Source: Acetomicrobium flavidum (GTDB lineage Bacteria; Synergistota; Synergistia; Synergistales; Acetomicrobiaceae). Taken from it: DNA of 64,000 nucleotides. The stretch covers positions 186,001 through 250,000 of the forward strand of contig NZ_FSQZ01000001.1 in the NCBI RefSeq assembly GCF_900129645.1, read 5' to 3'. Shown here piece by piece: positions 1 through 5,098 of this stretch. The notes under the pieces are model-generated. The model did no database searches. It had not been told where the DNA came from and saw nothing but the letters and a program-made list of their open reading frames with translations. The first letter of the stretch is position 1. Each line of letters opens with the position of its first letter. Both the position numbers and the translations under genes were made by a program.

Positions 1-22
1 TAATAACATCTTAAAAACAGGC

Positions 23-1288
23 TTGTTGTCAAGTAAAAAGATTAACTGGCTCGATATAGCTGGCTTATCTTTTCCTCCGGCTCCGCCAACGTACGAGCAG
101 GTAGCAGCTGAAGTAAACATTCCCAAAAAGAGCTTTTGGGAGCTGTTTTTCCCTAGTTGGAAGGCAAGGCGTAAAGCAAAGGAGCAAGAAGCACGCGAAA
201 TATATAAAGATCGCCTGGAAAAACATGAACTTCACATAAAGGAAATGAAAGAACGAGAGCTCAAACTTCGAACCGATTTCGAAAATGGTGATCCGCTCGC
301 AGTTGAGAAATACGTTTCGCTCGTACTTAAAAAATCTTGTTATCCTCCTGAAATATCCAAAAAGTATGAAGTGCAGTTTGACCCATTAAGTAAGACTGTC
401 ATTGTAAATTACCTTTTGCCAAACCCAGAACAGATTCCGAGAATAATAGAATTTAAATATATAGCAAGTAAAAGAGAAGTGAAAACTGTCGAAATGAAAC
501 AAAAACAATTTGAAGCTTTTTATGAGTCTGTGCTCTACCAAATAACTCTACGCACTATTCACGAGGTGTTTCAGAGTGATTACCCAAATAATGTGCAGTC
601 TGTGGTCTTCAACGGATGGGTAGATGGTATAGATCGGGCAACGGGTACAGCTTTTAGATCATGTGTTTTATCATGTCAGGTTTTTAGAGAAGAGTTTCAA
701 AAACTCAATTTATCTCAAGTGGATCCAAAACTGTGTTTCCGCAATCTAAAGGGACTTAACGCTGGGCCGTTAGCCCAGTTAGCTCCGGTTAAGCCTGTGA
801 TGGAGATAAAGCGTGACGATGTCAGATTTATCGAATCCCGGCCCATCTTAGATGAAGTGGAATCCATACCTAATCTAGCTACAATGGATTGGACAGACTT
901 TGAGCACCTGGTTCGTGAATTGTTTGAAAGGTTCTTTTCGAAAGACGGAGGCGAGGTGCGCGTTACTCGTGCCAGTCGTGATTGGGGAGTTGATGCCATC
1001 GCCTTTGATCCTGATCCCATAAGAGGAGGCAAAATTGTAATCCAAGCTAAACGTTATAACAATGTAGTCCCAGTATCTGCCGTTAGAGATTTATATGGCA
1101 CCGTAATAAACGAGGGGGCAACGAAAGGTATCCTTGTAACCACAAGTTACTTTGGTAATGATTCCAGAGAATTTGTCAGAGACAAACCTATTACTTTAAT
1201 TGATGGTTCTAATCTGATTTCTTTATTTCAACAACATGGATATAAAGTTAGAATAGAACTGCAAAAATCTAGAACAAATGGGTCTTAA
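23..1288 (+). CDS. Mrr-type restriction endonuclease-like protein (5' end uncertain)
   Basis: Predicted nuclease of the Mrr_cat (PD-(D/E)XK) superfamily, which usually cleaves modified or foreign DNA. From the TTG at 23 it has 421 residues. Residues 40-85 are charged and helical, 110-260 form an unrecognised middle domain, and 288-410 form the Mrr-like domain. That domain shows E294 in DFEHLVREL, D324 in WGVD and the QAK triad (Q341-K343), followed by a KGILVTTS strand. The reading frame is open to the first base of the window, so the true start may lie upstream. No methyltransferase or specificity subunit is nearby, which fits a type IV or solitary enzyme. The sequence is AT-rich, like the rest of the island. 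The fold call is good; the biological target is unknown. Confidence 0.75.
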   Translation: MLSSKKINWLDIAGLSFPPAPPTYEQVAAEVNIPKKSFWELFFPSWKARRKAKEQEAREIYKDRLEKHELHIKEMKERELKLRTDFENGDPLAVEKYVSLVLKKSCYPPEISKKYEVQFDPLSKTVIVNYLLPNPEQIPRIIEFKYIASKREVKTVEMKQKQFEAFYESVLYQITLRTIHEVFQSDYPNNVQSVVFNGWVDGIDRATGTAFRSCVLSCQVFREEFQKLNLSQVDPKLCFRNLKGLNAGPLAQLAPVKPVMEIKRDDVRFIESRPILDEVESIPNLATMDWTDFEHLVRELFERFFSKDGGEVRVTRASRDWGVDAIAFDPDPIRGGKIVIQAKRYNNVVPVSAVRDLYGTVINEGATKGILVTTSYFGNDSREFVRDKPITLIDGSNLISLFQQHGYKVRIELQKSRTNGS

Positions 1289-1475
1289 ATTGAACAATTT
1301 TAAGATGTCTCGCATTTTTTTATCCAGAGAGCAAAACCCTTTTACTTTTATAGGATAGAGTCTAAAACAAAATTTATAGATGTCCAAACCTTTAACGCTG
1401 ACTTTATAACTTTATATTTGATACCTCAACAAGCACTATGCGTAATAAAAACTACAAGGGTTTACTTCCTTATAG

Positions 1476-1682
1476 CGCCGTGAACGTAGAATATTTTTAC
1501 ATTATAGCGCATGGAATGGTTACGTGAGGTATAAAGAGATTCTGTTGGGTATAAGTGATCTCTGCAAACGTATTGGCTTAACAGTACAATAGGATCCATA
1601 TAAGATTGAAATAATTGGCAGGCGCAAATATCGGTATGATCTTAAAGACATCTAGTTTGCCATGTTGAAATGGATGGACTGA
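1476..1682 (+). pseudogene. Decayed small HTH-like protein remnant
   Basis: The 431-base gap between the Mrr-like gene and the Ntn hydrolase has no intact gene. One plus-strand frame reads as a plausible helix-turn-helix or excisionase-like peptide (ISDLCKRIGLTVQ, then IIGRRKYRYDLKDI). It is broken by TAG at 1590-1592 and TAG at 1653-1655 and ends with TGA at 1680. No start codon with a ribosome site is convincing. The call rests on sequence character only and could be chance. Confidence 0.3.
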
Positions 1683-1719
1683 TAAATTATTTTAAAGATT
1701 AAGAAAAAGGGGGGTTAGA

Positions 1720-2532
1720 ATGACTATTTGCGTGAGTGTAAGAATTCCTGAGGGTTTAATATTGGCTGCTGATAGTATGGTTACTATCGAAGGGTCGATT
1801 AATACACTGCAAGGCCGACAAAAAAAGGTATTGAAGACATTTGAGTTTGCTAATAAATTGGTGCGTATTAAAGATTACCCTATAGGAGTAATGACGTGGG
1901 GAATATCTAGTTTAAGTGATAGGTCAATCCCAAGTCTAATAATGGAATGGGAACATGGTTTGCCCCCACTTAAAGACAATCAGCCTTACACCGTAGATGA
2001 TATGGCTTATGTTCTGCAATCATTCATTGCTGAACGATATGATAACACCTATCCTGCTACAGGAGAGCGTCCTAATTTGGGCATTTTTATCGGGGGATAT
2101 TCACACAGCCAATTCTTCAGTGAGCAATTCTTTTGTGAGTGGCCAAATGTAACTGCTTGGCAAACAGTTCAACCTAATAGACCAGATGGCAGCCAAAGTT
2201 TTGGTGCTAACTGGTTTGGACAAACAGACGCTTTAAGTAGGTTAATACACGGTTATGACAGAGGAGGTCTCGACGAATTAATCAAACGAGGTGTCAATAA
2301 AGAAATTGTCCAGAAGTGGATGGATGACAGGGTTTCTGAGTTACCATTGATATTTAATGGAATGCCCCTCCAAGATGCTATTGATTTTGCTAATTATGCT
2401 GTTCAATTGACAATAGGTAGATTCAGATTTGCAGTTGGTTTGCCCACTTGTGGGGGTAACGTTGATATAGCAGTTATTACACCAAGCACTTTCCAGTGGG
2501 CACAACGGAAACAATGGGCTATAAAGGAATAG
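1720..2532 (+). CDS. Proteasome-beta-like Ntn hydrolase, stand-alone
   Basis: A 270-residue protein whose N-terminus follows the pattern of proteasome beta, HslV and Anbu subunits: Met, then Thr2 in TICVSVR, then GLILAADSM with Asp18, and a Lys-rich strand near residues 33-40 (KKVLKTF). In that superfamily Met removal exposes Thr as the nucleophile, and an Asp and a Lys complete the site, so Thr2 is the predicted nucleophile. It is longer than HslV (about 175) and close to the length of Anbu-type proteins. The AAGGGGGG ribosome site about 7 bases before ATG fixes the start, so Thr2 is not an annotation artefact. No ATPase unfoldase (hslU, clpX) is adjacent. It lies in the AT-rich island between two Mrr-like nucleases. 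The substrate is unknown, and amide hydrolysis other than proteolysis is possible. Confidence 0.65.
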   Translation: MTICVSVRIPEGLILAADSMVTIEGSINTLQGRQKKVLKTFEFANKLVRIKDYPIGVMTWGISSLSDRSIPSLIMEWEHGLPPLKDNQPYTVDDMAYVLQSFIAERYDNTYPATGERPNLGIFIGGYSHSQFFSEQFFCEWPNVTAWQTVQPNRPDGSQSFGANWFGQTDALSRLIHGYDRGGLDELIKRGVNKEIVQKWMDDRVSELPLIFNGMPLQDAIDFANYAVQLTIGRFRFAVGLPTCGGNVDIAVITPSTFQWAQRKQWAIKE

Positions 2533-2796
2533 GAGAAATGAAATGGTAATAAACAATATCTTGATGCAATTGATATCAGGAAAAATAATTATCGTCTGAA
2601 AAGCAGAACAAAGACTAGGCTTGTATAAAAGCAGCAAGGATAATGTTTAGTTGAAAATCGGAAAGGGCTAATTTTAACTTAACCGATGGAGGTGAGTAGA
2701 ATTGCAACCGATATTGACACATATTTGATGACATGAGGAGACCGCAATCTCAGATGGGTTAGGGATTATTACCTCAAAGTGTTTATCGGGAACTTT
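2533..2796. other. Intergenic, no gene seen
   Basis: About 260 AT-rich bases. A good GGAGGTGAG ribosome-like site near 2686 is followed by only a few codons before a stop, so it may be the front end of a lost gene. Nothing else is supportable. Confidence 0.4.
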
Positions 2797-3261
2797 TTAA
2801 TTCCGCCTTTCCAGCATGCTTGATATCACTAACTCAAACTTATAAGGCTCCATCAACTTCATATTTTTCTTCGACAGGTTTATTCTCTTCCCTGGCTTAC
2901 TTTTCAGGCCTTCGTAATTGCGGCTCATAGAAAGGACGTTACATTCCTTATATGCAAGAGAGGGTATCAGGTACAGTTGAGGAGGGCAAGTATCGATTAG
3001 AAAACCAAAGGCTAAAAAGTGGTTCTCGTACAATTCGAATTTATCTTTGGGAATAAATGCGTAACCCTAAGAGCGAAAGGACTTCACCTGTACCTCAATA
3101 AAAGGGCGGTGCTCATTTCTCGCGATAAAGTTGATGTCACGATCTTCTATTCCTGCCCCATAAACCTGAATCCCTTACATTGTGAGTTCCATCTTTACGT
3201 AATACTCTGTAAACGCCCCTATCTGCTGTTTATTTAAGCGGCTCCAAATGTATCGTTCCAT
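2797..3261 (-). pseudogene. Broken PD-(D/E)XK-like protein with two in-frame stops
   Basis: Read on the minus strand from ATG at 3261-3259, with an AGGAG site 9 bases upstream, one frame runs 155 codons to the stop at 2797. It is interrupted only by TAA at 3177-3175 (codon 29) and TAG at 3069-3067 (codon 65). Both interruptions are clean: the protein pattern continues in the same frame. The translation has GAFTEYYVKMELTM, then GIQVYGAGIEDRDINFIARN, then IEVQVKS, the layout of small restriction-like nucleases (E, a D/N-containing strand, then QVK). It ends in a hydrophobic region with LYLIPSLAYKE and LSKKNMKLMEPYKFE. Family name is not certain. The good ribosome site suggests recent decay. Confidence 0.6.
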
Positions 3262-3432
3262 ATCTTTCAACTCCTGTGGTTATGATACATGCTTATGGAT
3301 CCAGGTTAATTGTTTTCAAAAACGCCAAATTTATAGATTTTGCAGTAGTTGGAGCTACCAGCGACCAATCGTATATTGCATTTTGCTGGGACTGGTAAAG
3401 AAGGGGTAGAGAGGAAAGTGAACAATAGGGCC

Positions 3433-4467
3433 TCAAACCGTATCGTTTGTAATAGCCTCATCTTCGCCAAGTTCTATCAAATCATGGGAAACGCGAGTAA
3501 CTCCAATCCCATACTCAACCATCAGGAGAACTAGTTGTTCACCGCTCATTAATGCTACTGGCGTGGCATCCGGACGGGCAGCTTCTTTACGTGCGCCAGT
3601 ACTAAAGTCGCTGGTGGTAATTATTAAACCTTGCTCATGGGCGCCGAGGCTTCCTCTTACTTGTTGAATTATCGGTGCCTGGATATTTTGTTTCCATTTC
3701 TTAACCTGTATAGCCATGCGAGTGCGAATTACATCTCCAACTACTAAGGTGCCTCGCACATCGATACCCCCATCCCTGGTGGGGTTGGTGACTTCGATGT
3801 CTTCAAAACCCATCTCTGCCAAAAGTCTGGCAATTAAATCCTCAAATCTATCCCATTCCATGTTAAACAGGCGGTTGCGAAGTTCCTGGCGTACTTTTTT
3901 GTTATGCTGTTCAATCTGGGAAGCAAGGCCGTGTTCTGACCATCTCGAGAGGCTAATATATCCTTTGCCATGCTGGATGAAGCGCGGTTGTTCTCCGCGT
4001 GCCTTGTAGCGTTTTATCTCGGAAATGATCTGTGCGTACATAGTAGCTTCGGGAGTTTTTCCTTCAGTGGCTAACAACCTCATTTCAAGGGCCTTCTTAG
4101 TTATGTCGCGATAATGCATGGGTTCTCCGTTGCCTAAGTCTTCCAACACTTTTTCGGCTGCATTGGTAAACGAATACGTTATTGTGCGGTTGTTTGAATT
4201 AGGCTGCCCTGCTGTAACAGCTTCTTCTGGGGTTGGTTGTTTTTCGAAGGTACGCAGCCCAAAAGTTTGCGGAGCCGTTAAGAGAAAGGGGGATTGCTCC
4301 CCCTTGTTTTTGATATCCATATAAATTCGAGCACCTACAGTACGGTCCGGGGTTTTCCCCCTTGTAGTCCATAGATTTTTAGAAAGAATGCGTCGTGTTA
4401 TTTCAGTAATATGAAGCGGTTCGCCCGCCTCCTGCAATACCTGAATGACAGCATCGCGCAATTTCAT
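3433..4467 (-). CDS. Mrr-type restriction endonuclease with two HARE-HTH domains
   Basis: 344 residues with two similar N-terminal winged-helix repeats, about residues 1-70 and 98-172. Each has the HARE-HTH/ASXL pattern (PLHITEITRRIL and PMHYRDITKKAL; then GKTPDRTVGARIY and GKTPEATMYAQII). An Mrr-like nuclease domain at 203-330 follows, with F208-E209 (RFEDLIARLL), RDGGIDV (D232, D236), QVKKW (Q254, K256) and GLIITTSDF. HARE-HTH domains are known to be fused to restriction enzymes and are proposed to sense modified bases. The start has AGGAGGAAGC just upstream. It converges toward the broken nuclease gene only across a gap, and no methylase is present. Likely a type IV-like or solitary restriction enzyme. 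Confidence 0.85.
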   Translation of the reverse strand: MKLRDAVIQVLQEAGEPLHITEITRRILSKNLWTTRGKTPDRTVGARIYMDIKNKGEQSPFLLTAPQTFGLRTFEKQPTPEEAVTAGQPNSNNRTITYSFTNAAEKVLEDLGNGEPMHYRDITKKALEMRLLATEGKTPEATMYAQIISEIKRYKARGEQPRFIQHGKGYISLSRWSEHGLASQIEQHNKKVRQELRNRLFNMEWDRFEDLIARLLAEMGFEDIEVTNPTRDGGIDVRGTLVVGDVIRTRMAIQVKKWKQNIQAPIIQQVRGSLGAHEQGLIITTSDFSTGARKEAARPDATPVALMSGEQLVLLMVEYGIGVTRVSHDLIELGEDEAITNDTV

Positions 4468-4693
4468 TATTGCTTCCTCCTACTTATTATTACACGTCTT
4501 TGTCTTTGCATGAGCATTCTTAAGCAATCGACTTTTTCCGGCAAAAGTCAGATGTTTTTCATGAACGGTTTCAAAAAAAGACTTGCGGTCAAGGCCGCCA
4601 CAAGCACCAGGAACTTTTAGTAATTAATTTATCAGAAATCGTTATCCAGTAACAAGGTTTTATAACTATATCTTTAATGCTAATCTAACTAAA
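4468..4693. other. Intergenic, no gene seen
   Basis: About 225 AT-rich bases upstream of the minus-strand Mrr gene; it must contain that gene's promoter. A short plus-strand peptide frame (4561-4620) has no family resemblance that I recognise. Confidence 0.4.
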
Positions 4694-4873
4694 TTATACC
4701 GCCCCACGCAAATCTTTGCACACCAACCCCAGCTCTTTAAGCCTTATCTCCATGGCCTGCATGGAGACCAAATAGCGGTGGGCAAGGGCCCTTAGGCTGT
4801 ATCTGTGCGCCTCGCGGGCCAGGAGCTTTTTGGGCATCAAAAACTCCGCGGCGAAGGCATTGGCCAAATATTG
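4694..4873 (-). pseudogene. 3' remnant of an ImmA/IrrE-type metallopeptidase
   Basis: On the minus strand, a frame of about 59 codons begins abruptly after a TGA and ends at TAA (4696-4694). It reads QYLANAFAAEFLMPKKLL, then HRYLVSMQAMEIRLKELGL. The AN-FAAE-LLMP pattern follows the HExxH helix in ImmA/IrrE (DUF955) peptidases of phages and integrative elements. The HExxH part itself is missing, so this is only the C-terminal end. The base composition is GC-richer than the surrounding island. It marks the island's right edge just before tRNA-Arg and suggests a lost mobile element. Confidence 0.55.
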
Positions 4874-4975
4874 TCATTTTCTATAATTCCGTATCCGTAC
4901 GGGAAAATGCATGCGTTAGACACCCTTTATGACCTTCGGCCTCCCTCGATTTTCATGAATTTCCCCTCAAGGGTG

Positions 4976-5021: not shown

Positions 5022-5098
5022 GGACCTGTAGCTCAGTAGGATAGAGCGACGGCCTCCTAAGCCGTAGGTCGCCGGTTCGAGTCCGGCCAGGCCCGCCA
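5022..5098 (+). tRNA. tRNA-Arg(CCT)
   Basis: A full cloverleaf can be folded by eye. The acceptor pairs GGACCTG with CAGGCCC (one A-C mismatch at the third pair). The anticodon stem is ACGGC/GCCGT with loop CTCCTAA, so the anticodon is CCT. The T loop is TTCGAGT and CCA is encoded (5096-5098). It borders the accessory island on the left. Confidence 0.95.

Follow-up and report, generated by a model that had tools for sequence, protein, structure and literature searches.

A proteasome-like Ntn hydrolase in a restriction island, with relatives encoded in operons beside Fic/Doc toxins

Twenty-two proteasome-like families have been described, without a genomic context that would suggest their function (PMC8665760; Fuchs, Alva and Lupas 2021). 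An insertion between helices H3 and H4 is listed there for the families PMI-2 to PMI-6, where it possibly prevents double-ring assembly, and an ATP-independent clean-up role is discussed for homologues that have no AAA+ partners (PMC8665760). In addition, the COG2856-Xre-RelE/PIN group has been predicted to form a protease-containing three-component module, in which the protease is a Zn protease (PMC2701414). Herein, a bacterial gene for a proteasome-like protein, P0001, is analyzed together with its relatives. The superfamily of P0001 is already known; what is new is the Fic/Doc operon in the relatives, and no link between a proteasome homologue and Doc was found in the open-access literature searched.

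The gene lies within a stretch of 64,000 nucleotides, referred to as the window, as an intact ORF of the plus strand with an ATG start and a Met-Thr N-terminus, opening MTICVSVRIPEGLILAADSM. Its surroundings comprise the following features:

1720-2532, plus strand: proteasome-like Ntn hydrolase gene P0001, 270 aa (ORF; profile homology to proteasome beta/Anbu; AF2 and Foldseek)
1709-1714, plus strand: G-rich ribosome-binding site (sequence)
1-1288, plus strand: Mrr-type restriction endonuclease, 450 aa, ORF start 64 bases before the window (Pfam Mrr_cat 1.8e-30; PADLOC mREase_IV 4.6e-67)
3433-4467, minus strand: HARE-HTH and Mrr-type nuclease (Pfam HARE-HTH 1.5e-36, Mrr_cat 5.3e-26; PADLOC PDC-S02 4.3e-40)
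1-4956, no strand: right-hand portion of an island of 6.9 kb, which starts about 1978 bases ahead of the window (synteny gap)
5022-5098, plus strand: tRNA-Arg(CCT) at the island boundary (ARAGORN, Rfam)

The first-pass annotation, made from the sequence, had placed the gene between nucleases and away from any HslU or AAA+ partner, and both statements hold. The flanking genes, upstream on the plus strand and downstream on the minus strand, are Mrr-type nucleases (Mrr_cat 1.8e-30 and 5.3e-26), and neither HslU nor another AAA+ partner gene was seen in the island around 1720-2532. The host genome encodes a separate HslV with HslU beside it at C1:827413, more than 600 kb from P0001, and the identification of P0001 as the host's HslV was rejected on this basis. 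The island itself is absent from three genomes of the same genus (G012, G014 and G015), in which the flanks lie about 300 bp apart; synteny with them ends at about -1978 and resumes at 4957-4966. Its cargo consists of CorA (1.8e-51), a broken integrase fragment, the two Mrr-type nucleases and the Ntn gene. The integrase fragment (Phage_integrase 3e-4, under the cut-off) lies upstream of the window, at about L116:18900-19800, between CorA and the Mrr endonuclease. It resembles the C-terminus of a tyrosine recombinase, is interrupted by stop codons and is likely what remains of the element with which the island arrived.

As a single sequence, P0001 had no match in Pfam, NCBIfam, PADLOC or PDB (phmmer). 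Its PHROGs match was phrog_5990, of unknown function (E 1.4e-8), and tblastn against plasmids and named phages returned nothing significant even with the limit at E 10. Relatives were found by searching DNA with a degenerate pattern that encodes the C-terminal motif D[IV]A[IV]xT..F.W, a motif that the matches confirmed; viral contigs were reached by the same pattern after seeding with the single protein had failed. This search yielded one viral contig and, among genome contigs, eight relatives of full length with 28-57% identity, one of the eight being the same contig sequence as the viral match. With profile searches added, across the surrounding phyla and viral contigs, the full-length set came to 47 rows, namely the query and 46 relatives. 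The family is sparse: the profile found it at E 0.001 in 9/300, 10/297, 19/281, 8/246 and 3/279 genomes of five phyla, counts that include many distant members, and in its own phylum P0001 occurs in one of 188 genomes, the query itself.

Several subgroups stand apart among these relatives. One, comprising L096, L097 and L099 (MTIAISLKVNDGLVLAADSA), is located directly downstream of tail genes and, in L097, also of an amidase-like gene, and is phage encoded rather than part of a host island. Another consists of relatives of about 410-470 aa that open TAEIAIMNKEAVALAADSA (L047, L086, L080, L082, L091 and L092), and contains a large insertion; this group is probably PMI-4-like or of the phrog_5990 type. 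A third, on viral contigs (L102, L103, L105 and L106; MTVCVCVKVNECMVFAADSA), has a distinct and strongly conserved C-terminus, YVSGDIDVATVTKYENFRWIKRKHYYP.

Structural evidence was obtained from an AF2 model of P0001 based on a 26-sequence alignment (pLDDT 88, pTM 0.86); a model predicted without the alignment was of no use (pLDDT 33.5). All of the top 50 PDB entries returned by Foldseek belong to the 20S proteasome, with E-values from 6e-8 to 8e-7 and TM scores, normalized to target length, of 0.55-0.71. The Ntn fold, which the first-pass annotation had proposed to verify by structure prediction, is thus present in the model. Searched against PDB, the 26-row profile gave 39 matches (best E 0.0044), all but one of which are proteasome beta or Anbu, and hhalign of the family profile with a small Anbu/HslV set gave a probability of 98.7 and E 1.7e-16, with Thr2, Asp18 and Lys46 in register. 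The Pfam Proteasome family PF00227 matched four of the 26 alignment members (best 4.5e-6) and not P0001; this missing match is a limit of sensitivity, not a structural criterion. The proposal of a stand-alone proteasome-beta-like hydrolase with an encoded N-terminal Thr is supported by AF2, Foldseek and the Anbu/HslV alignment together. The active-site residues and the main inserted element map as follows:

1723-1725, plus strand: codon of Thr2, predicted to serve as nucleophile once Met is removed (T or S in all 47 full-length rows)
1771-1773, plus strand: codon of Asp18, equivalent to proteasome Asp17 (D in 45/47, E in 2/47)
1855-1857, plus strand: codon of Lys46, equivalent to proteasome Lys33, shifted by an insertion of about 12 residues (K in 47/47; aligned by hhalign to the Anbu/HslV lysine)
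1900-1902, plus strand: codon of Gly61, equivalent to the oxyanion Gly47 (G in 45/47; end of model strand 55-61)
2251-2367, plus strand: two-helix insertion between H3 and H4, codons 178-216 (AF2 helices; mostly unmatched in Anbu/HslV)

In the model, these residues occupy proteasome-like topological positions, with Thr2 before S1, Asp18 at the end of S2, Lys46 before a strand and Gly61 at the end of one. A Thr directly after Met, and Asp18 in place, had been noted at the outset, and both positions proved conserved across the 47 full-length rows. Because Thr/Ser2, Asp/Glu18 and Lys46 are kept in all 47 rows and Gly61 in 45, the presence of Thr2 and Asp18 is more than chance. P0001 is almost certainly a proteasome-like Ntn hydrolase with an intact active site.

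Position 2 is Thr in 26 rows and Ser in 21, and the preceding residue is M, V or L in 45 of the 47, compatible with a start codon. Proteins that start Met-Thr lose the Met as an established rule, which predicts a mature N-terminus at Thr2 for P0001. Removal of Met1 by methionine aminopeptidase would expose Thr2 as the nucleophile of a site that also comprises Asp18, Lys46 and Gly61, and catalysis would require neither a propeptide nor a dedicated unfoldase. In the remaining two rows, the preceding residue is an Ala that ends a signal-peptide-like segment. Distant relatives (L007:3820-4677, L008:437-1336 and L030) likewise carry a signal-peptide-like N-terminus, the last residues of which (AxA or a similar triplet) immediately precede the catalytic Thr, with the junctions ALA/TVNIT, SKA/TVNVV and CTA/TVSMV. 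These junctions suggest a periplasmic proteasome-like protein, the nucleophile of which may be exposed by signal peptidase.

The inserted helices span residues 181-189 and 194-203, between the helices at 170-177 and 217-237, and an extended S3/S4 region of about 12 residues forms a second extra element. The H3/H4 insertion argues against the canonical stacked double ring, which makes a monomer or small assembly probable; P0001 would then probably act on a specific partner, as connectase does. A helical insertion and the probable lack of a ring are shared with connectase (PMC8665760), as is the chemistry of the nucleophile, and P0001 might accordingly be imagined as a transpeptidase or ligase that, instead of hydrolysing its partner, links it to a particular peptide. 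We regard this as very improbable, since the connectase insertion sits at S3/S4, the main insertion of P0001 lies at H3/H4, and no recognition motif was found.

In four relatives from different lineages, an ORF of 63-84 aa and then a Fic/Doc gene come directly after the Ntn gene, all three in the same orientation. These loci, with the Pfam Fic E-values of their Doc proteins, are L129 (L016, Myxococcota; 7e-16), L133 (L012, Desulforudis; 8e-13), L134 (L018, Chloroflexota; 4e-7) and L095 (a viral contig; 3e-11). The operon Docs keep the motif HxFxD[GA]NKRT, and HxFx[DE]GNKR is found in the four relatives. The L134 Doc frame (L134:1804-2230, minus strand) is broken, running out of frame near a C homopolymer, which reflects either an assembly error or real decay. 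The small ORF starts about 10-25 bp past the Ntn stop with its own Shine-Dalgarno sequence; at L129, an ATGA joins the end of the small ORF to the start of Doc. The small ORFs share 20-28% identity and only a C-terminal [WM]E[ER]L[SA] as a common element, and had no family match; the label 'antitoxin' therefore rests on position and size. After Doc, the Desulforudis locus also encodes a Schlafen/AlbA_2 protein (L133:11118-12296; 1.1e-11), another neighbour of the defence type.

Among 80 Doc relatives on viral contigs, the Ntn gene lies beside two, both of at least 41% identity and both being the operon loci themselves, and is absent at the other 78. The operon is also absent at L132 (Pseudomonadota) and at the Planctomycetes-type loci L130, L131 and L135, which belong to the same clade as operon members, and most members of the broad family are without Doc. 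In the tree, the query falls with L016 in a six-member clade (support 99/98), within which the branching order is weakly supported; L005/L018 and L095 fall outside this clade, so the operon was probably present in the ancestor and disappeared from the lineage of the query. Neither the window nor the host genome contains a Fic/Doc gene (99.87% complete, searched at E 0.1), and the present function of P0001 therefore cannot depend on Doc. No Doc or small-ORF remnant was detected between 2533 and the downstream nuclease gene. One candidate trace lies directly at the stop codon:

2531-2545, plus strand: AGGAG over the stop codon, then ATGAAATG (parallels the Shine-Dalgarno and ATG of the antitoxin-like ORF in L129, L134 and L095)

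The stretch directly after the P0001 stop, AGGAGAAATGAAATG, resembles the antitoxin start region, with no coding remnant beyond it. Judged from this short resemblance, 2531-2545 is a possible, weak candidate for a vestige of the lost second cistron.

The window copy is an orphan, probably of a lost operon. An orphan on an island whose integrase fragment is broken by stop codons could be a decaying relic with no present function. This is very improbable, given a full-length ORF, a good ribosome-binding site and the integrity of all catalytic and structural signature residues. General ATP-independent clean-up of proteins or peptides, as suggested for BPH or the uncapped 20S, accommodates that conserved active site as well, together with the host's lack of a Fic gene, the lack of a visible unfoldase partner, the many broad-family members without Doc and the role discussed for homologues without AAA+ (PMC8665760); the nuclease neighbourhood would then be accidental cargo of a mobile island. 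The sparse distribution (1/188 phylum genomes), the tight Doc operon in four lineages and the enrichment of restriction-modification (R-M) genes described below weigh against it, and we consider it unlikely.

R-M or Mrr genes account for 6/37 genes within two genes of the Ntn gene and for 2/115 farther away on the same stretches (Fisher p = 0.003), and for 4/34 near genes when the window is left out (p = 0.025); these are small numbers, obtained by mechanical calling with a simple ORF finder, and some of the ORFs are spurious. Such genes lie near five of nine independent loci (the window, L133, L134, L095 and L140), orthologous Planctomycetes-type loci being counted once. The adjoining genes encode a Type IIG enzyme at L134 (1e-203) and at L095 (3e-273) and a methylase at L133, and the neighbourhood of L140 includes a Type II endonuclease (4.5e-112). 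Together with the location of P0001 between two Mrr-type nucleases and of relatives on viral contigs and in mobile contexts, the Type IIG enzymes and methylases would also suit a stand-alone anti-phage effector, that is, a dormant Ntn protease activated by infection and cutting host or phage proteins, with the nearby R-M genes as independent systems. P0001, however, has no sensor domain and matches no PADLOC model, and beyond the small ORF and Doc no conserved partner is seen, so that this role is distinctly unlikely.

Altogether, we tentatively favour, at somewhat less than even confidence, a role for P0001 as a substrate-specific N-terminal-threonine peptidase of defence or toxin-antitoxin modules. 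Its lineage would belong to mobile modules of the order Ntn peptidase, antitoxin-like protein of 63-84 aa and Fic/Doc toxin, often located beside R-M genes. In the operon relatives, the peptidase may cleave the small protein, or something that triggers it, and thereby set the activity of Doc, as might happen when a phage infects the cell; the window copy would have lost both partner genes and been left as an orphan in a restriction-endonuclease island. A toxin-like or amidase effector, which had also been envisaged for P0001, found no support. Since the relatives share their operon with a Fic/Doc toxin gene and a small antitoxin-like ORF, a peptidase that modulates such a module is the better fit. 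A bolder version would make this an undescribed three-component defence module, in which a proteasome-like peptidase controls Doc by cutting the small antitoxin on infection, and whose solitary descendants are re-used or stranded in restriction islands; we hold this version to be rather doubtful. The Doc operon, the small putative antitoxin and the R-M neighbours nevertheless provide a concrete, testable hypothesis for the function of one proteasome-like lineage. If it is true, proteasome-type catalysis joins the proteases of bacterial conflict systems.

Compared with the described systems by their reported features, P0001 resembles the PMI families (Proteasome homologs with Multiple Insertions), above all PMI-2. 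Both have a proteasome-like core with equivalents of Thr/Ser1, Asp17, Lys33 and Gly47 and no propeptide, and the P0001 family likewise shares the H3/H4 insertion and the occurrence in many bacterial phyla. The Doc operon and R-M neighbours seen in the relatives of P0001 set it apart from the families of PMC8665760, which are without informative context. Anbu resembles P0001 in its Met-Thr start, catalytic triad and lack of an AAA+ partner, and led the profile match at E 1.7e-16. In the P0001 model, however, the C-terminus is a strand (258-262) followed by coil, without the long coiled-coil helix H5 of Anbu, and the H3/H4 insertion and the neighbours also differ; the assignment of P0001 to Anbu was rejected on this C-terminal architecture. 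HslV shares the proteasome-beta fold and the Thr nucleophile, but has an HslU partner, whereas P0001 has no HslU alongside and no Pfam Proteasome match. Connectase is likewise proteasome-beta-like, stands alone and contains two inserted helices, yet it is an archaeal ligase that lacks H1/H2 and carries its insertion at S3/S4. Phd-Doc type modules resemble the relatives in combining a small protein and a Fic/Doc toxin in one operon, while the window copy has neither toxin nor antitoxin. Finally, the COG2856-Xre-RelE/PIN modules provide a precedent for a protease inside a toxin-antitoxin operon (PMC2701414), with the difference that the protease in the relatives of P0001 is a proteasome-like Ntn hydrolase rather than a Zn protease.
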